Source: Deltaproteobacteria bacterium (lineage in GTDB: Bacteria > Desulfobacterota > Desulfarculia > JACQYL01). Taken from it: a stretch of DNA of 64,000 nt. Both the position numbers and the translations under genes were made by a program. The notes beneath the pieces are model-generated. The model made no database searches. It was given only the letters and a program-made list of their open reading frames with translations, and had not been told where the DNA came from. Below, piece after piece: positions 19,555 to 34,406 of this stretch. Each line of letters opens with the position of its first letter. The stretch's first letter is position 1. The DNA is taken from contig JACQYL010000054.1 of the NCBI GenBank assembly GCA_016208165.1, positions 1 to 64,000 of the forward strand, given 5' to 3'.

Positions 19555-19738
19555 TCGAAAACGGCGCCGAGGACAGGCCTGTTCGAGAGAATGACTGGTT
19601 GTTTTCGATCCCTATAACAGAGTGGTACTTTGCCCGGCGGCGGGTCTTTACCCGAGGAGTACATAAGGGATCGAGCCTGCCGTGTCATGTGAACCGGTGC
19701 GTCAAGTCTATTTCAGGATTTATCGCTGGGAGAAGAGA

Positions 19739-20398
19739 ATGCCAATCACGCAACATGAGCCGGAACTTCGGTTGCACGAACGGATAGAGAATGCCGTCGC
19801 CCGGACTCAGGATCATTTCTTCCGCGACCAGGACTCCGAAGGGTACTGGTGGTATCCTCTCGAATCCAATGAGACCATAACCGCCGAGTACTTGATGTTG
19901 TTGGCTTTTTTGGGTTTGAACGAACCCGAAAAAACGAGGCTGATCAGAAATCATATACTTGAAACCCAGAGGGCGGACGGAACTTGGAGCATTTATCATG
20001 GAGGGCCTGGAGATATCAGCACGACGATAGAAGCGTATTTCGCGCTCAAGTTGGCGGCCGTTCCCACTGACATGCCCGAAATGCGGCGGGCGAAGGAATT
20101 TATCCTGGACGAAGGGGGGATTTACCAGGCTAGGATATTCACCAAGATCTTCCTGGCCCTGTTCGGTTGTTTTCCGTGGAAAGACGTCCCTTCACTGCCC
20201 GTTGAGATTATGTTGCTCCCGCCGAACTTCATTCTTTCCGTATACCGATTTTCCAGTTGGGCACGGGCTACCCTGATTCCGCTCACAATCCTGCTCCCCA
20301 CAAAGCCCGTGAACGAGTTGGGACGGGTGACTGGGCGGGAATCCAGCCCCCAATGGTCAACTCGCTTCTTGCCCTCCACACACTGGGTTACCCGGTAG
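19739..20398 (+). pseudogene. shc: Squalene-hopene cyclase, 5' fragment
   Basis: N-terminal part of squalene-hopene cyclase: the QW-type repeats and the conserved sequence FPWKDVPSLPVEIMLLP...SSWARATLIPLTIL are clear. Homology stops near 20330 (NELG); the last about 22 codons to the stop are read out of frame. In intact cyclases the KPV position is followed by about 65 more residues before the GDWAGIQPP motif; here that motif follows almost at once and in another frame. ATG at 19739 is preceded by GGGAGAAGAG. The fragment cannot make an active enzyme because the catalytic DxDD motif is in the 3' part. Confidence 0.85.
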
Positions 20399-21471
20399 AT
20401 CATCCGATAATCCAGAAGGGTTTGGAAGCCCTGGAACGATTCTGCATTCGACGTGAGCATTCACTCGAGCTGCAGGCGTGTGTGTCCCCGGTGTGGGACA
20501 CCGGCCTTACCTGCCTGGCCCTGCTGGCGTCGGGGGTGCCGCCGGAGCATCCTTCGGTTCAGAAAGGCGCCCAGTGGTTACTGAATAAGCAGATTTTTTC
20601 GGGTGGCGACTGGCAAGTCCGGGTTCCTTCCGGAAAGGCCGGGGGATGGGCGTTCGAATTTTCTAACAGCCACTACCCGGACGTGGACGACTCGGCTGTT
20701 GTACTCATGGTTCTGAAGAGGGTTCTGAACGGTGGAAATGGCGACGTCCCGGATCGTCTGAAGGCCGGAATGGAATGGGTGCTGGCGATGAGAAGCCGTG
20801 ATGGCGGCTGGGGAGCCTTTGACAAAGACAACAGCAATCAATATTTGAATAAGATACCGTTCGGCGATTTGAAAGCCATGATCGATCCCAGCACGGCGGA
20901 CCTGACAGGTCGAGTGCTGGAAATGATGGGGTGCTTTGGGTATAAAGGGGATCATCCTCTTGCGAAAGCCGCCATCCGGTTCGTTCGTGAAAAGCAGGAA
21001 GAGAGCGGTGCATGGTGGGGCAGATGGGGTGTGAATTACATCTATGGCACGTGGTCCGTACTGAGCGGTTTGAAGGGTATCGGGGAAAACATGAGTCGAC
21101 CGTATGTCAGGCGTGCGGTGGCTTGGCTCAAGGAGCGACAAAATGAAGACGGCGGATGGGGGGAAACGTGCGATAGTTACCATAAGTGCTCTTACAGCGA
21201 GTGCTCCAGCACGCCTTCCCAGACAGCCTGGGCTCTTCTGGCTCTGATGGCGGCGGGAGAGGCGGAGTCGCCGGAAGTGAGCAGAGGGATCCGATTCTTA
21301 CTGGATCGCCAGAAAGAAGACGGATCATGGGAAGAAAAAGCGTTTACCGGAACGGGCTTTCCCAAATATTTCATGATTCGTTACCAAAATTACCGGAATT
21401 GCTTCCCTTTATTGGCTCTGGGCAGGTACAGTCAGTTTCTGAAAAACGGACATATTGGGAGCGGGGACTGA
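20257..21471 (+). pseudogene. shc: Squalene-hopene cyclase, 3' fragment
   Basis: C-terminal two thirds of the cyclase. From about 20322 the frame reads GTGDWAGIQPPMVNSLLAL and continues with VSPVWDTGLTCLALLA, the catalytic acid motif YPDVDDSAVV, GGWGAFDKDN, RWGVNYIYGTWSVL, and the terminal GTGFPKYFMIRYQNYRNCFPLLALGRY. The residues before about 20320 in this frame are not homologous. Intact protein converts squalene to hopene at the membrane. The missing length must be 1 more than a multiple of 3, about 200 bases, so this is a deletion with frameshift and not a point error. All C-terminal catalytic motifs are intact. Confidence 0.88.
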
Positions 21472-22504: not shown

Positions 22505-23324
22505 CCAAGATCAGACGGAAACAGAGAGCACGATCGGCGTCAATTCGCGGAAGCAGGACCGTAAGCTGGGCGATGAATGGTCCGACTGGAGCGGTGATCT
22601 TGACGCCTTGGAGCCGGCCATTACGGAATCCAAGCTCAAATTCATGGCCCTCGGCCTCGTGACAGTACTGCTGATGACGGCCGGATGCCTCTTATTGTGG
22701 TATCTTGCGGAGCCGCGCCTTCAACAACTGGCGCCGGCTTGGCGATGGGCGGTTCACAGCTTGCTGGTGTTCGGTTTGGTTTTTCCGGGTTTGATGTACG
22801 TGTTGCTGTTCATTCAAGTTGTGTTCGACATTCGGATCCTTCCATACCGTTTCAGTGAACGCTTCCTGTTTTTTCTTCTTCCCAAGGCGGTCTGGCTGGG
22901 AAGACGGCTCGGCCAATCCCGGGACAAGGTGGGGCATTCGTTCATCAAGGTCAACAATGCAGTGACTCGGCTCCAAGGGTCTCAGGTCGGAGAGCCGACG
23001 TTGCTGATCTTGCTGCCCCGTTGCCTTCAGGTTTCGGTGCGCAAAGAGATCAAACAGATGGCGCAAGAATACCCGTGTCGGATGACCACGGTTAGGGGAG
23101 GGGAGGAGGCTCGAAAAGAAATCCAAAAACAGCGTCCCGACTTCATCATTGCCATGGCGTGCGAACGGGATTTGATTACGGGCATAAAAGACGTGGCGCT
23201 TTCCGTTCCAGTAATCGGTATACCGAACCAACGACCGGAAGGACCCTGCAAAAACACTCTGATCCCTGTCGAAGAGTTCAGAGCAGCCCTCGACTGTATT
23301 TTCTCCAAAAACAATCGAAAGTAG
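22491..23324 (+). CDS. DUF116 family membrane protein
   Basis: This 277-residue protein has two membrane helices (about 50-73 and 86-110) and then a cytoplasmic domain with the DUF116 signature: LLILLPRCLQ, later IIAMACERDLITGIKDV and VIGIPNQRPEGPCKNT. Three cysteines in these motifs could bind metal or a cluster. Its function is unknown. It overlaps hpnA by 14 bases, has GGAAGG 8 bases before the ATG, and lies between hpnA and hpnH, so a role beside hopanoid modification is inferred from context only. Confidence 0.8.
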   Translation: MPVVSQDQTETESTIGVNSRKQDRKLGDEWSDWSGDLDALEPAITESKLKFMALGLVTVLLMTAGCLLLWYLAEPRLQQLAPAWRWAVHSLLVFGLVFPGLMYVLLFIQVVFDIRILPYRFSERFLFFLLPKAVWLGRRLGQSRDKVGHSFIKVNNAVTRLQGSQVGEPTLLILLPRCLQVSVRKEIKQMAQEYPCRMTTVRGGEEARKEIQKQRPDFIIAMACERDLITGIKDVALSVPVIGIPNQRPEGPCKNTLIPVEEFRAALDCIFSKNNRK

Positions 23325-23332
23325 ACTTCAGC

Positions 23333-24334
23333 GTGCGATTTCCTATTCAGCTTCATCTGTCCATGATGAGGTATTTGCTGTCCAATGGGTTACACGGAGT
23401 CAAGCGATTCCCGTTGGTCCTTATGTTGGAGCCGACGCATCAATGCAACCTGAACTGTTCAGGTTGCGGGCGCATTCGAGAGTATGCCGACTCGTTGCAC
23501 CGCTCCCTTTCACTAGAAGAATGCCTGGCCTCCGTGGACGAAGCGGGGGCGCCGGTGGTCACCGTCACCGGGGGCGAGCCCCTCATATTATCCAACATAG
23601 GCCGCATCATTCGAGGAATCGTGGATCGTGGAAAGCACGTCTTCCTGTGCACCAACGGTACGTTGCTGAAAGAGAAGTTGGCTGAGTTCACGCCCGACGT
23701 GCGTCTGACGTTTAACATTCATCTGGATGGATTCGGAGAGGCGCACGACCGGATCCTCGGCCGGCGCGGCGTGTTCGAGTCCGCAGTGGAGGCCATTCGA
23801 TCGGCCAAAGAAAAAGGGTTTAGGGTCAGCACCAATACAACGGTATACAAAGACAGCGACCCGTCCAATCTGGCGCGCCTGCTGGACATGTTGCACCGAC
23901 TGGACGTGGACGGCATGCTCGTTTCGCCTGCGTTTGACTACGAAAGTGTGCACGAGGACCTGTTTCTCGACCGGGAGGAAATCGTCCGTAAGTTCAATTC
24001 GCTGTCCCATGTGTTCGATGGCCGCCGCATGATCAGCTCCCCCATATACCTCGAGTTTCTTTCCGGCAAACGTGATCTTCGCTGCACTCCCTGGGGTAAT
24101 CCGACTCGAAATCCAAAGGGTTGGAAATCCCCCTGCTATCTCATTACGGATACCCATTACGCGAGCTTCGAAGAATTGATGGAGAAGACGGACTGGGATC
24201 GGTACGAATCGGGAATGGACCTTCGCTGTCGTAACTGTATGGTCCACTGCGGCTTTGAACCGTCCGTCGTCCGCACCGTCGGTTCCCACCCCGGCGATCT
24301 GATAAAGATGATCCGTTGGAACCTGGATGCCTGA
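23333..24334 (+). CDS. hpnH: Radical SAM adenosylhopane synthase HpnH
   Basis: HpnH joins the 5'-deoxyadenosyl radical to diploptene to give adenosylhopane, the first step to extended C35 hopanoids. The 4Fe-4S motif is CNLNCSGC (Cys38, Cys42, Cys45), followed by TGGEPL (79-84), the HLDG strand, CTPWGNPTRNPKGWKSPCYL and the C-terminal DLRCRNCMVHCGFE. I chose GTG at 23333 because the sequence from there (RFPIQLHLSMMRYLL) matches the short N-terminal helix usual in the family, giving 333 residues. It overlaps the next gene by 8 bases. Confidence 0.92.
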   Translation: MRFPIQLHLSMMRYLLSNGLHGVKRFPLVLMLEPTHQCNLNCSGCGRIREYADSLHRSLSLEECLASVDEAGAPVVTVTGGEPLILSNIGRIIRGIVDRGKHVFLCTNGTLLKEKLAEFTPDVRLTFNIHLDGFGEAHDRILGRRGVFESAVEAIRSAKEKGFRVSTNTTVYKDSDPSNLARLLDMLHRLDVDGMLVSPAFDYESVHEDLFLDREEIVRKFNSLSHVFDGRRMISSPIYLEFLSGKRDLRCTPWGNPTRNPKGWKSPCYLITDTHYASFEELMEKTDWDRYESGMDLRCRNCMVHCGFEPSVVRTVGSHPGDLIKMIRWNLDA

Positions 24335-27788: not shown

Positions 27789-29636
27789 ATGGCTAAGGAA
27801 CACCCCGTGGATTCGAAGTCTGTAGGGCTTCTGAACGAAATACGTCTCGAATACGTAAAGCATCTGTCCGTCAAGTTTCTAGACCTGCTGGCGCCCACTG
27901 AATTGCCTGCGTTTGAAGCCCATTTTTCGGAATGGTTGGAAGGGATGGGCAGCCCGGAATCCGGCGAGGATGATGGGATCCCCCGATACTTTCGCCCAAG
28001 GGAGTCGGGATCGTTTCAGAGCGCCGAGTTGGCCGCCGCATACGACGCCGTTCCTGCGGTCCGAGGAAAACTGTATCAGTTCATTGTGTCGGGCATGTTT
28101 CTGGATTATCTGAAGACGCTGCGCAACGGTGATTTCGAAACCATAAAGAAAGAATTCTCGGAGAAATTGGATCAGCTCGTTAAAGCCTATTACCTCCCCA
28201 CATCGGAGATCAGAAAGGAAGATCTGAATCTCCTCCAGGATGAATTGACTCGGATCACTCTTAATTATTATCACATATCCGGACACATCATGTCCGGCGA
28301 TGTCCGGATTGCCTCCGATTTGTCCGGAAAGGAAGACTTGGCCCTCATCTGGGGCAACCTAGATGACCTGGATCGAAAACTGGATGAACTCGAACGGTTG
28401 GCCAGGTCCGAGATCCCGATCCTTGTTACCGGCGAAACCGGAACCGGGAAGACCTTCTTGGCCCGCCATATTCACCAATTGAGTCGCCGGTCGCGATACC
28501 GCTGCCTGATCGTCAATTGCGCTTCCATACCGTCTCTTTTGTTTCAAAGCGAGCTGTTCGGATACAGAAAGGGGGCTTTCACCGGCGCGGTCCAGGACAA
28601 AATGGGATTGTTCAAAGCGGCCGATCGCGGTACCATCTTTTTGGACGAAATAGGAGAACTGGCGCCGGAAGACCAGGTAAAGCTATTGCAGGTGTTGGAA
28701 ACACAATCGTTTTTTCCTCTGGGGAGCCTTCAGGAAGTTTCCATCGACGTTCGGTTCATGTCCGGCACGAATCGTCCCCTGGAGAAAGCGGTACAAGAAG
28801 GCTGTTTCCGACAGGACTTGTATTACCGCATTAAAGGAGCTGAGATCGGTTTACCGCCCTTGAGGGATCGCATCGAGGTTCTGCCTCGACTGGCCCAACG
28901 GATCATGGAGAGGATCAGCGAACGGGAGGGCGTGAAACCGGCCGGCATCAGCAGCGCCACCATGGAACTGTTGAAAAGGTATGCCTGGCCGGGCAACGTG
29001 CGCGAGTTGGAGAACGTGCTGCAACGGGCCATGGCGCTGTCCCGTCCGGGAGACATTGAACCCAGGCATCTTCCGGACGAGATCGCGGGCTTGGGGCCGA
29101 AGACGAGGAAGCCCTCGGATGCCGGCGGGTATCTGCTGCGAGCGCGTCTGCGGAGTCAGGGGGTTGAAGACCGCTTTTTGGAAGAATTCCTGGTCCTTTC
29201 ACGTGGAACCAGCTTCAGCACGGCGGATCTGGCGTCCAAACATCCGCTGCCGGCCGGGCGCGGGAACGTCGCGGACGAAAGCCGCATGCGCATGGCCCGG
29301 CGTATGCTCGAGCCGATCAAGGATGAGATCATCGAGGACAATGGATCGAGGGCGCGAGCCGTGCGGTATCGGGTGCGCAGCTCCCTCCTGGATCAACCGT
29401 TCAGAGGGGCGGCCGATGAAATCAACCGGGCCGCCGACGAATTTCATTTGACCAGGCGCAAGGCGTTTCAGCTCTATGACGTACTGATGGAGTGCCGGGA
29501 GGCCGGTTTGACGGCGGAAACACTGGCGGATCTCGCGAGGATTTCCATCCGACAGGCCCACGCCCTCCTGTACCGGTTGCAGCATCGGGGAGTGGCGCCT
29601 CAACTGTATAAAAAGCCGGCCGACCGGGTGCAATAG
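27789..29636 (+). CDS. Sigma-54 activator with unusual N- and C-terminal domains
   Basis: 615 residues. The centre (about 185-430) is a complete sigma-54 AAA+ domain: GETGTGKT (215-222), SELFGYRKGAFTGA with the sigma-54 contact loop (about 254-267), GTIFLDEIGEL and WPGNVRELENVLQRA. The first about 180 residues are helical and are not a receiver, GAF or PAS domain that I recognise. The C-terminal 170 residues lack a Fis-type helix-turn-helix; instead there is a stretch ending in two possible HTH segments (EFHLTRRKAFQLYDVL and LADLARISIRQAHALLYRL). It is 4 bases upstream of the solute-binding protein gene and so likely co-transcribed with it, and may control the peptide locus behind it. Confidence 0.82.
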   Translation: MAKEHPVDSKSVGLLNEIRLEYVKHLSVKFLDLLAPTELPAFEAHFSEWLEGMGSPESGEDDGIPRYFRPRESGSFQSAELAAAYDAVPAVRGKLYQFIVSGMFLDYLKTLRNGDFETIKKEFSEKLDQLVKAYYLPTSEIRKEDLNLLQDELTRITLNYYHISGHIMSGDVRIASDLSGKEDLALIWGNLDDLDRKLDELERLARSEIPILVTGETGTGKTFLARHIHQLSRRSRYRCLIVNCASIPSLLFQSELFGYRKGAFTGAVQDKMGLFKAADRGTIFLDEIGELAPEDQVKLLQVLETQSFFPLGSLQEVSIDVRFMSGTNRPLEKAVQEGCFRQDLYYRIKGAEIGLPPLRDRIEVLPRLAQRIMERISEREGVKPAGISSATMELLKRYAWPGNVRELENVLQRAMALSRPGDIEPRHLPDEIAGLGPKTRKPSDAGGYLLRARLRSQGVEDRFLEEFLVLSRGTSFSTADLASKHPLPAGRGNVADESRMRMARRMLEPIKDEIIEDNGSRARAVRYRVRSSLLDQPFRGAADEINRAADEFHLTRRKAFQLYDVLMECREAGLTAETLADLARISIRQAHALLYRLQHRGVAPQLYKKPADRVQ

Positions 29637-29640
29637 GCCG

Positions 29641-31365
29641 ATGGACAAGGGAAGGCTCAAATTCCTGCTGGTGGAGGCGGGCTTCTGGTTCTATTCTGTT
29701 TTCGCCCTGGCGGTGATGTTCGTAATGCTGATTCCGGCCCTTTTCCCGCCCGAAAAGCCGCCTTACCCCATCGAGGAAAGTCCCGTGTACGGAGGAACGC
29801 TGCGGATCGACGTGGGCGCTCCCCTGGGAGATCTGAATCCTTACGGCGGAGGACATCACGGGGCCACGTACGCCATGCAGGCCATGTACAATTTCCTGTG
29901 CGCCAAGGCTGGGGAAGGGAAGTTGTCGCCCGATCTGGCCGACTCGTGGACCTCGGACGAGACGTCGAGGATCTGGCGCTTCCATCTTCGCCAAGGCGTT
30001 TCCTTTCACAACGGCCGGAAAGTGACTGCCGCGGACGTGAAATATTCCATTCAGGAAGCGTTTCGACAATGGTTTCCTTCAATGAAGGAGAGCGTCCATG
30101 GGATTGAGATCTTGAATGAAGCACACGTTGGCATCCGGCTGTCGGTTTCCTTTCCGGATTTCCTGGAGTATGTTTCCCAGATACCGATCATTCCGAAGGA
30201 CTCACTGCAAAACGGAACCGACTGGTACGAATCTCCCGTGGGCACGGGCCCGTTCCGGTTCGGATCCCGGGACGGCGACAGGAGCATCGTGCTCGACGCC
30301 TTCCCGGGCTACTACGAAGGACGGCCGCGCCTGGACCACCTGGAGTTCACGTTTCCGGATCCTGAAGAGAGCGTCTTGTGGCGGTTTCTCAAGGAGAGAT
30401 CGGATGCGGTGCTGGAAGCGGAACCGCGATATCTGCTGTTTTTGAACGGCGTCCCATACTTCCAGCGGGCCTATTTGACCACCATTCCGTACTACTACGT
30501 CATCATGATCAACCACCGGCGCCCCCCTTTTGACGATTCCCGGGCTAGGGCCGCTGTTGCGTACGCCATCGACGCGTCCCGGTTGAGCGAGAATTTTGTC
30601 GGAGGAGGGGAAGCCCCTGTTCATGCAGGGCAGCCTTGGGAAGAAGCGGCGCCGTTTGCAAAACCGCTCCCGTTCGATTTTCGGAAAGCCGAGGACCTCC
30701 TGGCGTCCGCCGGCTGGAAACTGGGGGATGACGGGCTGTACGTTAACAAAGATTCCGAGCCTTTCGAGGTGAATCTTCTCGTGCCGGCCGAGTTCACCTG
30801 GGAGATCGACGCGGCCGAACGCTTGCAGGGCCAGCTCCTGCGATTCGGCATCGACCTGCACGTCGAAATCATGGAGTACCGCGCCATGGAGGAAGGCCGC
30901 CTGAAACCGGGTCGATTCGACGCCGCATTGAACATCGTAAGGCTGCACATCGATCAGCCGGAACACATGCACAATCTCTTTCACAGCACAGGGGGTTGGA
31001 ACTTCGGCGGATACGGCAATCCCGATGCGGATGCGCTGCTGGCAGGAGTGCTTCACGAACCGGACCGGGATCGGAGGATGGAGCTGTACCGCGAGCTGGG
31101 AAGACGGTTTTCGGACGATCTCCCCGTCATATTTCTTGCCCAAAAACGCATCGTGTCCACCATGTCCGATTACTTCGGAGGACTCGAGAGCGTAACTGTC
31201 AGGCCCTCCGCCCGCAAGGAGTATCAGCTTGTCTACCTGAAGCAGGGCGCCGAACCGGGAGGGTTTCAGCTCCTCAACCATCAGCGTGCTCCGGAACTGG
31301 GCCTGTTCTGGGGCAAACCGACGTTTCTGGAGGCCGTGGACGCCTATCGCAAGGATTCCCAGTAG
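29641..31365 (+). CDS. Membrane-anchored solute-binding protein, family 5 (peptide type)
   Basis: 574 residues. A hydrophobic N-terminal helix (about 12-34) without an evident cleavage site or lipobox suggests the protein stays anchored outside. The rest is a family-5 extracellular binding protein: YGGTLRIDVGAPLGDLNPY, LADSWTSDETSRIWRFHLRQGVSFHNGRKVTAADVKYSIQEA, PVGTGPFRFGS, ARAAVAYAIDASRL, and a C-terminal FGGYGNPDADALL. Such proteins normally bind oligopeptides for an ABC importer, but no permease or ATPase gene is near. It is flanked by a sigma-54 activator and a small peptide gene, so it might sense or capture a peptide. Confidence 0.85.
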   Translation: MDKGRLKFLLVEAGFWFYSVFALAVMFVMLIPALFPPEKPPYPIEESPVYGGTLRIDVGAPLGDLNPYGGGHHGATYAMQAMYNFLCAKAGEGKLSPDLADSWTSDETSRIWRFHLRQGVSFHNGRKVTAADVKYSIQEAFRQWFPSMKESVHGIEILNEAHVGIRLSVSFPDFLEYVSQIPIIPKDSLQNGTDWYESPVGTGPFRFGSRDGDRSIVLDAFPGYYEGRPRLDHLEFTFPDPEESVLWRFLKERSDAVLEAEPRYLLFLNGVPYFQRAYLTTIPYYYVIMINHRRPPFDDSRARAAVAYAIDASRLSENFVGGGEAPVHAGQPWEEAAPFAKPLPFDFRKAEDLLASAGWKLGDDGLYVNKDSEPFEVNLLVPAEFTWEIDAAERLQGQLLRFGIDLHVEIMEYRAMEEGRLKPGRFDAALNIVRLHIDQPEHMHNLFHSTGGWNFGGYGNPDADALLAGVLHEPDRDRRMELYRELGRRFSDDLPVIFLAQKRIVSTMSDYFGGLESVTVRPSARKEYQLVYLKQGAEPGGFQLLNHQRAPELGLFWGKPTFLEAVDAYRKDSQ

Positions 31366-31412
31366 GCCCGACAGACCAACTCACCGATATTTCATTGCTA
31401 TTCCTCTTATTT

Positions 31413-31441
31413 GCCCGGAAAACCCGGGCGCCCCTCTTTTT
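31413..31441 (+). terminator. Possible Rho-independent terminator after the binding-protein gene
   Basis: GCCCGG-AAAAC-CCGGGC (31413-31429) is followed by GCCCCTCTTTTT. The 6-bp GC stem is good, but the T-run begins 6 bases after it. It would separate the upstream genes from the peptide gene. Confidence 0.45.
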
Positions 31442-31454
31442 GGCACGCCTTGCA
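31441..31454 (+). promoter_or_regulatory. Sigma-54-like element with a spacer 2 bases too short
   Basis: TGGCACG-CC-TTGCA shows both half-sites of a sigma-54 promoter (TGGCACG-N4-TTGCW) but with 2 bases between them in place of 4, so GG and GC are 8 and not 10 bases apart. It sits about 50 bases upstream of the peptide gene. As written it should not be functional; see findings. Confidence 0.25.
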
Positions 31455-31503
31455 ACCCCTTCTGAATTGACGCGCGCAATTTCAGGAAAGGAGGCGGACA
31501 CCT

Positions 31504-31593
31504 ATGATGTGCATGACCATTACGGAAGCCGGGTACCATTTCGAGTCGGCTCGTCCCTATTGCTGTTGGGTTGGGCCCATGGCGGCAATGTAA
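31504..31593 (+). CDS. 29-residue peptide, candidate precursor for the radical SAM enzyme
   Basis: A tiny gene with an excellent ribosome binding site (AAAGGAGG, 9 bases before the ATG at 31504; a second ATG follows directly). Key residues: Cys3, Tyr11, His12, Arg17, and PYCCWVGP at 18-25 with adjacent Cys20-Cys21 and Trp22; the end is MAAM. It has no membrane helix and no similarity that I recognise. It is followed, 97 bases later, by a radical SAM/SPASM enzyme and then an MFS transporter on the same strand, the order typical of ribosomally made peptides that are modified and exported. That it is the substrate is inference. Confidence 0.55.
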   Translation: MMCMTITEAGYHFESARPYCCWVGPMAAM

Positions 31594-31651
31594 ATCCGAT
31601 TTTACCCGAGGAGAGTATACGTCGACGACGTGCCGTATGATCCGGTAGGCG

Positions 31652-31669
31652 GGGGGCCGTGAGGCCCCC
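31652..31669 (+). promoter_or_regulatory. GC hairpin with GTGA loop between peptide and maturase genes
   Basis: GGGGGCC-GTGA-GGCCCCC forms a perfect 7-bp stem closed by a GNRA-type tetraloop. There is no T-run, so it is not a plain terminator; it could partly stop or stabilise transcripts so that more peptide than enzyme is made. It ends 21 bases before the radical SAM start codon. Confidence 0.5.
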
Positions 31670-31690
31670 ACGCTGCCCAAAGGGGAAGGT

Positions 31691-33052
31691 ATGACAAGCC
31701 CGAACCACCGTCCATCCCGTTTTCTGGTCGAACACGGGATTTCATGGGAAGGCAACCAATGGTGCGTGCTCCTGCACACCGTCAACCGGAGCTTGAAGCT
31801 CCTGGAACAGGAGCCGTGGAACGCGATCAAGACAGGCCGGATAACGAAAGCGTACGGTCCTCTGTTCGAGGACCTGTGCCGGTCGGATATTCTGGCGCCC
31901 GAAGGCGTCGACGAGGTCAAGGTGCTGAAAAACTGGCGTAACAGCCAATACTACGCCAACAAAGAGCTGGCCGTGAAGGTGAAAGTCACGGAAGACTGCA
32001 ATCTCGCTTGTGATTTTTGCATACAGGAGGGCATGAAACGTCCGGTCAGCATGTCCAGAGAAATTGCCGAACAGTGCGTGACCTTCCTTCGGGATCGCAT
32101 CGCAAAAGAAAAGCCGGAAGCGGTTCGTGTGATGTTAACGGGGGGAGAGCCCCTGATGAACCAGACGGCCATCCGGAGCTTCGGGATGCTGCTCCAGTTC
32201 TGCAACGGAAAGGGTATACCCTGCGATCTGTCGCTTACGACCAATGGGACCCTGCTTACCAGGAAGATGGTCCGCGAGCTGCACTGGCTGGGCGTTCGAA
32301 CGGTTCGAGTGTCCATTTTCGGGACGCGGGAAACCCATGATCGGAGACGCACTTTCAAAAACGGCAGCGGTTCTTACCGGTTGATCGAACAAAACCTGCT
32401 TGAGGCCGCCCCGTTCGTCCGGTTTCGAATACTCATGCAATACGACGAACAGAATGAGGACTATCTCAAATATCCCAAGCTGTTTCAGCGGCTGAAGGAG
32501 TTGGGACTCGATGAGGCGGTGGAAGATGTGGAGATGGGCCCTTTGCTTCCCCGAGAGTATGATTTCGGCCGGTTGGGATCCACGCTTTGCAGCAACGTTT
32601 CCAAACCGGAGATATACGCCTATTTAGAGGATGAAGCCAGGAAGTACGGTCTCAAACCGCCGGTCGAGCTGCCGTCCAGCGGGTGCATGGCCAACTACCG
32701 GAGTTGCCTGGTAATAGACGTGGATGGCAACTTGGTCAGTTGTCCCACGATCTCCCACTCGCAGCACCCCGGACTGACCTATGGGAACGTGTGCCGGGGC
32801 ATCGATTTCGTGAAAGAATCCCAGGTCATAGCGAGACCTTTGGCGGATTCCTGTTTCGAGTGCAACGTGGCCGGATTGTGCGACGGCGGATGCCGCCAGC
32901 AGAGCCTGGTGAAAAACGGCGATTTCGACGGTCTTCACTGCACCCGGGAATATCTCGAGGCGTTGGTCCGTAAGTACATGGAAGACAAGGTAAAAGGGTA
33001 TCTTTCGAGTCTTCGGGGAACGGAGGCCGGGAGGAAGGCCAGAGCCGCATGA
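31691..33052 (+). CDS. Radical SAM/SPASM enzyme, probable peptide maturase
   Basis: 453 residues. The N-terminal 95 residues (VLLHTVNRSLKLLEQEPWNAI...) resemble the leader region of peptide maturases. The 4Fe-4S site of the radical SAM core is CNLACDFC (Cys103, Cys107, Cys110), followed by MLTGGEPLM (148-156) and LSLTTNGTLL. The C-terminal SPASM domain offers Cys332, Cys339, Cys351, Cys388, Cys391, Cys397, Cys401 and Cys417 (FECNVAGLCDGGCRQQ), enough for two more clusters. Enzymes of this build install thioether, carbon-carbon or related links in small peptides. It overlaps the MFS gene by 4 bases. The real product is unknown. Confidence 0.87.
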   Translation: MTSPNHRPSRFLVEHGISWEGNQWCVLLHTVNRSLKLLEQEPWNAIKTGRITKAYGPLFEDLCRSDILAPEGVDEVKVLKNWRNSQYYANKELAVKVKVTEDCNLACDFCIQEGMKRPVSMSREIAEQCVTFLRDRIAKEKPEAVRVMLTGGEPLMNQTAIRSFGMLLQFCNGKGIPCDLSLTTNGTLLTRKMVRELHWLGVRTVRVSIFGTRETHDRRRTFKNGSGSYRLIEQNLLEAAPFVRFRILMQYDEQNEDYLKYPKLFQRLKELGLDEAVEDVEMGPLLPREYDFGRLGSTLCSNVSKPEIYAYLEDEARKYGLKPPVELPSSGCMANYRSCLVIDVDGNLVSCPTISHSQHPGLTYGNVCRGIDFVKESQVIARPLADSCFECNVAGLCDGGCRQQSLVKNGDFDGLHCTREYLEALVRKYMEDKVKGYLSSLRGTEAGRKARAA

Positions 33053-34251
33053 ACCGCGGACTGTGGCTGCTCGTTTCGCTCGAGTTTATGGCTGTCTTGG
33101 GTAACCAGCTGCTCAGCCTGGCCATTTACTGCATGCTGGTATTGGGCGTCGAAACAAGCGCCCAGAACCTGCTCGCGCTATTCGTCAGTGTGCAAGTGAC
33201 CGCGCTCTTGATGGTTCCGATAGCAGGGCCTCTCCTGGAACGAGTGGGGCCGGTGAACGTCCTCGTGTATAGCGGGATCGGCAAAGCCGCGCTGCTGGGA
33301 ATTCTTTCGGTGGCTTCGGAGAACGGTTCGTCCGTCTACCCCCTATACGCCTTAGCGATGGGCCTGGACCTGTTTCAAATCTCCGGAAGATCCTCCGCTT
33401 TGCCGCTGCTGGTGCGCCGGATCGATCTGGTGAAAGCCAATGCCGTTCGGCAGAAAATGTCGGTTTGCGCCAACATCCTGGGACCGGCCGTCATGGGCTT
33501 GGTGATTACTGAATTCGGGTCCCGACCGGGCATAGCAGCGAGCGCACTGCTCTTCGGCGTGGCCGCGTTGGGCGCCGGATGGCTGCCTCTGGAAAGTATG
33601 AAGCATCGACAGAACGTCCGGCTCAGGGAAGGAACGCTTCACAGGTTCAGGGAATTCTTTCGATCTTCTCCTCAGATCAAAGAGCTACTCCGGATCATGT
33701 TGTTCTGGATGGCGGCCTCCGGTCTCTTTCAATACGGGTTTCCGCTGTGGTTCAATGAAAAGCCCTCGGCGAACGCGTTTGGGATGGGAGTCGCATTCTC
33801 CATGTTCAATCTGGGCGCCTTCGGAGGCGCCGTGGTCGTATTCAGACTCGGGAACGATCGATTCAAAAGTGTGCTGCGTCAAAGTCTACTGGTCGAGGCA
33901 TCGTGCATTTTGAGTTTGGCGCTGATCTCCCAAGGGGTCGCGTTTGAAGGCGGTCTTCTCCTGCTGATCGGGGCCGCTTCGGCTATCCAGCAGGTCATGT
34001 TGGAAAGCGGCCTTCAGGCCGGTTGTCCTCCTCATCTCCTGGCAAGACTCATGTCTCTGGGCGCGGGACTTCGTTGCTTTGGGGCACTGATCGGAGCAAT
34101 GCTGGGGGCTCTCGTGGTTCACCAGTTCGGCATGACTTCTTCGCTCTTGCTTGCCGCGGCGGCGTTTGCACTGATATCGTTCAGGATCGGTACTGGGGCC
34201 ACTGATCTTCCATACGCCGGCGAATCCGCATCCAACGCTCCTTCACCATAA
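33049..34251 (+). CDS. MFS transporter, probable exporter of the peptide locus
   Basis: A 400-residue protein with about 12 hydrophobic helices and the organisation of a major facilitator (SLEFMAVLGNQLLSLAIYCMLV at the start, short loops, YPLYALAMGLDLFQISGRSSALPLLVRR in the first half). It overlaps the radical SAM stop by ATGA, which suggests translational coupling and therefore a joint function. Export of the modified peptide is the simplest guess; drug or sugar transport cannot be excluded. Confidence 0.8.
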   Translation: MNRGLWLLVSLEFMAVLGNQLLSLAIYCMLVLGVETSAQNLLALFVSVQVTALLMVPIAGPLLERVGPVNVLVYSGIGKAALLGILSVASENGSSVYPLYALAMGLDLFQISGRSSALPLLVRRIDLVKANAVRQKMSVCANILGPAVMGLVITEFGSRPGIAASALLFGVAALGAGWLPLESMKHRQNVRLREGTLHRFREFFRSSPQIKELLRIMLFWMAASGLFQYGFPLWFNEKPSANAFGMGVAFSMFNLGAFGGAVVVFRLGNDRFKSVLRQSLLVEASCILSLALISQGVAFEGGLLLLIGAASAIQQVMLESGLQAGCPPHLLARLMSLGAGLRCFGALIGAMLGALVVHQFGMTSSLLLAAAAFALISFRIGTGATDLPYAGESASNAPSP

Positions 34252-34293: not shown

Positions 34294-34400
34294 GAACCTC
34301 CTTGTTTGAATCGGATTCGCGAATGGCCGGGTGTTGGGCCGAGCTGGGGCTCGGCGTTCCCGGCGGAACCCCCTTGTTTGAATCGGATTCGCGAATGGCC
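34294..34400. repeat. Two direct 35-bp repeats, period 72 bp
   Basis: Copies at 34294-34328 and 34366-34400 differ at one base. Each contains the near palindrome GAATC-G-GATTC followed by GCGAATGGCC. They lie in the 155-base gap between the MFS gene and the convergent secreted-protein gene. In one plus frame both copies read LFESDSRMA, but that frame has no well-placed ribosome binding site. Confidence 0.7.
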
Positions 34401-34406
34401 TGCGAG

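Follow-up and report, generated by a model that had tools for sequence, protein, structure and literature searches.

Does a reading frame of 29 codons lying directly ahead of a radical SAM gene encode the substrate of that enzyme, and what would the finished product then do? The question is raised by a locus in a stretch of 64,000 nucleotides, hereafter the window, which the initial annotation had presented as an undescribed RiPP-type system of peptide, maturase and exporter. The Shine-Dalgarno (SD)-led 29-residue frame, the radical SAM/SPASM enzyme and the MFS frame were all recovered where that annotation had placed them. The features of the locus, including the two genes upstream, are the following.

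27789–29636, + strand: sigma-54 activator, AAA+ without receiver domain, with an orphan N-terminal domain; ends 4 nt before the next gene
29641–31365, + strand: family-5 periplasmic solute-binding protein (SBP_bac_5, OppA/AppA/NikA-like), by Pfam, with matches to AppA and NikA
31487–31494, + strand: Shine-Dalgarno AAAGGAGG, read directly, 9 nt ahead of the ATG
31504–31593, + strand: putative precursor peptide gene, product MMCMTITEAGYHFESARPYCCWVGPMAAM, 29 aa; the stop ends at 31593
31652–31669, + strand: hairpin GGGGGCC-GTGA-GGCCCCC between the precursor and maturase genes
31691–33052, + strand: radical SAM/SPASM maturase, geopeptide-maturase-like, 453 aa; residues 1–95 predicted to be RRE-like
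33049–34251, + strand: MFS transporter (TIGR00900/MFS_3, EntS-like), 400 aa; ATGA overlap with the maturase gene

The reading frame and the adjoining maturase

By direct reading of the sequence, CCW falls at residues 20–22 of the peptide, and eight residues remain after the Cys pair. When the 325-nt intergenic region from the upstream gene to the maturase gene was subjected to 4000 dinucleotide shuffles, SD-led frames of 20–60 aa of any kind were found 146 times. Two of the shuffled frames carried CxW, and CC within the last 18 residues was seen in 0 of the 4000 shuffles.

The maturase matches Radical_SAM (PF04055) in Pfam, and its best NCBIfam family is TIGR04280, the geopeptide radical SAM maturase, for which it scores 224.1 bits and the curated threshold is 400. 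The CX3CX2C motif is formed by C103, C107 and C110, and all seven Cys of the SPASM pattern are present (C332-X13-G346-X4-C351 ... C388-X2-C391-X5-C397-X3-C401-X15-C417), so that the enzyme carries the complete arrangement used to recognise SPASM proteins (CX3CX2C plus CX9-15GX4C ... CX2CX5CX3CXnC). The closest PDB structures to its full-length AlphaFold model (pLDDT 75.9) are CteB and TigE. The N-terminal domain has no match in Pfam. Modelled alone, the first 97 residues adopt a three-strand, three-helix order (bbb-aaa; pLDDT 86.5), and its seven top-ranking PDB matches are confined to TbiB1 (with leader) and CteB, at E 0.015 or worse and TM <0.4, below Foldseek significance. The initial annotation had proposed that leader binding by residues 1–95 be predicted; the RRE-like bbb-aaa model agrees with such a role, but no PDB match had an E of 0.001 or better. 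The domain is described here as predicted to be RRE-like.

Relatives of the enzyme at E <= 1e-20 were found in three of the 62 other genomes of the window's class that were searched, a class that is sparsely sampled. Neither a scan of the genome collection with the window enzyme as the single query nor a viral scan returned a relative. In a tree of 68 enzymes, in which long branches leave the exact placement unsure, the window enzyme groups with those of two loci of its own class, L033 and L058, in a separate clade (SH-aLRT 99) that lies apart from the core geopeptide enzymes. The L058 homologue (L058:278-1594) has kept all SPASM Cys and lost CX3CX2C (EDRGWAAPGYRP), and it is possibly a pseudo-radical-SAM protein. 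The maturases of L039, L040 and L048 are extended at the C-terminus by some 280 residues, which in L039 match nothing in Pfam.

Precursors across the maturase family

The comparison covered 64 maturase genes from 62 loci, picked solely by enzyme homology; two of the loci (L066, L076) repeat others exactly or nearly so. By a fixed rule (an SD, 18–100 codons, two close Cys near the end, and <=450 nt upstream of the maturase), a mini-ORF was found upstream of 46 of the 64 genes. After removal of duplicates, Cys-Cys was present in all 44 precursors, the window's included, at 7–12 residues from the C-terminus (8 in the window). CCW, which the initial annotation had proposed to look for upstream of homologous enzymes, occurs in the window peptide and in the precursors of four relatives (L035, L039, L042, L046). 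Outside the rule, inspection by eye added three CC peptides (L036, L052, L195), as well as four loci (L034, L037, L053, L197) where a mini-ORF with an SD and a CxW ending comes after the maturase gene, between it and the SBP gene. The Nitrospirota precursor upstream of the L069 maturase has 79 residues in total, with a leader very rich in Lys and Thr before AACCMGKPYVLK.

The recurrence of the CC mini-ORF directly upstream of homologous maturase genes, together with the RRE-like N-terminal domain, gives good support to the claim of the initial annotation that the peptide is modified by its neighbour. Judged from sequence, the 29-residue peptide is very probably the substrate of the adjoining maturase, and the RiPP reading of the locus is well supported. 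The annotation had also named, as an observation that would count against it, homologous enzymes without such a frame beside them. This was found in part, since the two enzymes nearest to the window's, those of L033 and L058, have no visible CC mini-ORF, the sequence upstream of the latter amounting to 277 nt before the contig end. No close homologue was found that could show coding constraint on the window mini-ORF.

How far the peptide belongs to the geopeptides was assessed with two models. The curated precursor model TIGR04229 (cut-off 30 bits) did not match the window peptide at any E up to 10, and the precursors of eight relatives scored under 30 bits or not at all. Against a profile built from the CC precursors, the window peptide scored 9.1 bits, a value reached by 17 of 5000 shuffles of the peptide. 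When only the leader was shuffled, 2890 of 5000 scored as well; because leader shuffling does not lower the score, the link between the window peptide and the geopeptides rests on the CC tail and not on the leader. A leader of the LDEG or EIxVLDEG type was accordingly rejected, as ITEAG can be aligned with it by eye but does no better than these leader shuffles.

The peptide has the features of a geopeptide-type precursor, namely a short SD-led frame adjoining the maturase with Cys-Cys 7–12 residues from its end. Orthodox membership of the geopeptides is ruled out by the scores of enzyme and precursor, both under the curated cut-offs. The word "undescribed" in the initial annotation is correct only in part: enzyme and peptide fall below TIGR04280 and TIGR04229, but the best enzyme family already has a name, and the CC tail is common to geopeptide-type precursors. 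The locus is a diverged relative of the geopeptides, a kind already named and uncharacterised, and it has an exporter and a regulator of its own.

Gene neighbourhood and transcription signals

Geopeptide maturases were newly seen to adjoin genes for a TonB-dependent receptor (TBDT), a periplasmic binding protein and a histidine kinase. As a control, 16 random 17-kb regions were taken from the genomes searched. The receptor was present in 53 of 62 maturase loci (0/16 random regions), a PF04392 periplasmic binding protein in 49 (0/16), a histidine kinase in 49 (3/16) and a sigma-54 response regulator in 29 (1/16). A family-5 SBP was found in six loci, the window and five others, and never alongside PF04392 (Fisher 2.8e-5, with kinship ignored). 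For 40 of 51 PF04392 SBPs and 4 of 6 family-5 SBPs, the next gene after that of the SBP encodes the kinase. From this gene order we read the receptor/SBP/kinase neighbourhood as a putative sensing relay.

Within 8 kb, the window has no TonB-dependent receptor, PF04392 SBP or histidine kinase, and has instead the family-5 SBP and the sigma-54 activator. Both genes, which the initial annotation had left unconnected with the peptide, likely belong to its system, the activator likely as regulator. The SBP has an N-terminal hydrophobic segment with no lipobox Cys within it. Special shared ancestry with the maturase-linked SBPs is unsupported, as it scores 99–155 bits against these and 142 bits against a generic SBP of the class. 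The N-terminal domain of the activator had no match when 394 further genomes from the phylum were searched, and hence no function is drawn from it. On another contig (C98) of the same genome (L200:2945-8620), a tight operon encodes a PF04392 SBP, a histidine kinase, a sigma-54 response regulator and a TonB-dependent receptor, with no maturase; to judge by its gene content, it may be a geopeptide partner set acting in trans.

The MFS protein matches MFS_1/MFS_3 in Pfam and, weakly, the siderophore exporter EntS. An MFS gene was found in the window alone among the 62 loci, and no exporter family recurs among the neighbours of geopeptide-type maturases. The protein is likely the exporter of the peptide product. 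Just 3' of its gene, at about 34301–34402, the direct repeat CTTGTTTGAATCGGATTCGCGAATGGCC is present in two copies. Elsewhere in the window, at 19682–21471, a squalene-hopene cyclase-like gene is seemingly split into two overlapping frames, which appears to be a frameshift or an assembly error; one product of the probable hopanoid gene group around it is an HpnH-like radical SAM protein that carries DUF3463 (23159–24334).

A terminator-like hairpin at 31412–31430, between the SBP and peptide genes, means that the two may be separate transcripts. The 97-nt spacer between the precursor and maturase genes folds with z = -2.74, a value that 0 of 200 shuffles equalled, and by a simple stem score the window hairpin at 31652–31669 is unexceptional (p = 0.1). 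In the family, a strong hairpin (p <= 0.05 against shuffles) stands directly 3' of 34 of 44 precursor genes, compared with 12 of 61 maturase genes, 3 of 57 receptor genes and 6 of 49 PF04392 genes. Such hairpins would be expected if the precursor transcript exceeds that of the maturase. Sigma-54 promoters upstream of the family's precursors were in no excess over shuffles, and none with proper spacing was found at the window. A sequence resembling one, TGGCAC-GCC-TTGCA at 31441–31454, 50 nt before the peptide ATG, was rejected because its GG-GC spacing is two bases short.

Proposed pathway, alternatives and closest known systems

Taken as a whole, the locus is best explained as an outlying geopeptide-type RiPP that is cross-linked, exported and then sensed or recaptured, a reading to which we assign a probability of about 0.5. 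The SPASM enzyme would bind the 29-residue precursor with its RRE-like N-terminal domain, and a 5'-deoxyadenosyl radical would then drive the formation of a cross-link, or of several, within Cys20-Cys21-Trp22. Thioether is the likeliest link, by comparison with CteB, PapB and other SPASM relatives. After trimming by a protease, the product would be exported by the co-translated MFS pump and act outside the cell as a ligand, be it for signalling or for metal chelation. The family's conserved receptor/SBP/kinase neighbourhood suggests the last step, in which the family-5 SBP would catch the ligand in the periplasm and the adjacent sigma-54 activator would control expression. Against this explanation stand the two nearest enzymes without a CC mini-ORF, the missing TonB receptor and the unique MFS gene of the window, and a leader that resembles those of geopeptides no better than shuffles do. 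So do the want of a close homologue showing coding constraint on the frame, of a properly spaced sigma-54 promoter ahead of the peptide, and of any special closeness of the SBP to the maturase-linked ones.

Part of this evidence would also fit a mini-ORF that is not the substrate, the maturase acting on a peptide or protein encoded elsewhere in the genome and the frame being a chance occurrence or encoding a leader peptide that controls translation. The enzymes of L033 and L058, the want of a close homologue showing coding constraint and the insignificant leader resemblance all agree with this. It is made improbable, however, by the strong SD, by the result of 0/4000 shuffles and by a Cys pair exactly eight residues from the end of a frame directly upstream of the maturase, as in the relatives. 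If the peptide is the substrate, its product could be a metallophore, with a Cys-rich peptide exported by the MFS pump, its Cys pair binding metal, and recapture by a TonB-dependent receptor and an SBP, as methanobactin is taken up via MbnM/MbnT/MbnE. The receptor at most loci is consistent with this, as are the weak EntS match and the matches of the window SBP to AppA and NikA, the same broad class as MbnE, which is related to OppA/AppA (PMC7558416); methanobactin operons are likewise accompanied by TBDTs and exporters (PMC3621798). Yet Pfam revealed no metal-handling genes among the cluster proteins, the window itself has no TBDT, and the kinase gene that mostly follows the family's SBP genes points to sensing, so that we regard a metallophore as possible and rather doubtful.

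Antimicrobial activity is common among SPASM-modified peptides that have a transporter of their own, and by this general precedent the product might be bacteriocin-like, the MFS pump serving for export or self-protection. We consider this unlikely, as it is receptors, binding proteins and sensors that recur beside the maturases, and no exporter family does. PqqA and PqqE likewise pair a very short precursor with a maturase, which would suit a peptide-derived redox cofactor like PQQ or mycofactocin; such a pathway would hardly be expected to have an exporter and sensors, and by Pfam the cluster proteins include neither dehydrogenase partners nor further cofactor-maturation genes, making it highly improbable.

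From the outlying geopeptide-type RiPP that we prefer, a wider proposal can be made tentatively: geopeptides may be a class of radical-SAM-modified Cys-Cys peptides of delta-proteobacterial and Nitrospirota lineages that a dedicated envelope relay reads (TonB-dependent receptor, free SBP, histidine kinase and sigma-54 regulator), and the window may hold a diverged, reduced version with MFS export and with reading by a family-5 SBP and a non-receiver sigma-54 activator. The word "geopeptide" is absent from the 5.39 million open full texts searched, and no report of a product or role was found. The comparison makes a nameless peptide testable, through its conserved Cys-Cys(-Trp) tail, its receptor/SBP/kinase neighbourhood and an outlying version that bears an exporter. 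If the product is a signal or a metallophore, it would be a new route by which anaerobic, metal-cycling bacteria communicate or scavenge.

Among known systems, the locus most resembles the geopeptide system (TIGR04229/TIGR04280), with which it shares the best enzyme family, a short precursor directly upstream, the position of the Cys pair, a hairpin between the precursor and maturase genes, and a periplasmic binding protein and sigma-54 regulator nearby. It differs in its enzyme score (224 bits against 400), in a precursor that matches no model, in its own deep clade, and in having an MFS pump and no TonB receptor, PF04392 protein or histidine kinase. The L034, L037, L053 and L197 loci also have a family-5 SBP in place of PF04392, and a Trp two residues after Cys (CxW; CCW in the window). 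In those loci, unlike the window, the mini-ORF is downstream of a maturase from a separate clade, and there is a dCache histidine kinase and, in most, a response regulator and a TBDT.

With the ranthipeptide and sactipeptide maturases (CteB, PapB, SkfB), the enzyme shares the SPASM radical SAM fold and the predicted N-terminal leader-binding domain. Those classes are defined by a thioether from Cys-S to a side-chain carbon or to the alpha-carbon. CteB is its best structural match, although the two are only about 18–19% identical in structural alignments, and the window peptide has one Cys pair near the C-terminus instead of many Cys. The methanobactin operons (MbnABCMTE) likewise combine a short Cys-containing RiPP with an exporter and an OppA-like periplasmic protein, and with a TBDT as in the family. 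They differ in that no MbnB/MbnC (DUF692-type) domain is present in the six cluster proteins, which have a radical SAM enzyme instead, and in that the window has no TBDT. By analogy, the methanobactin system, with its exporter, TBDT and OppA-like MbnE, offers a working parallel for the arrangement proposed here.
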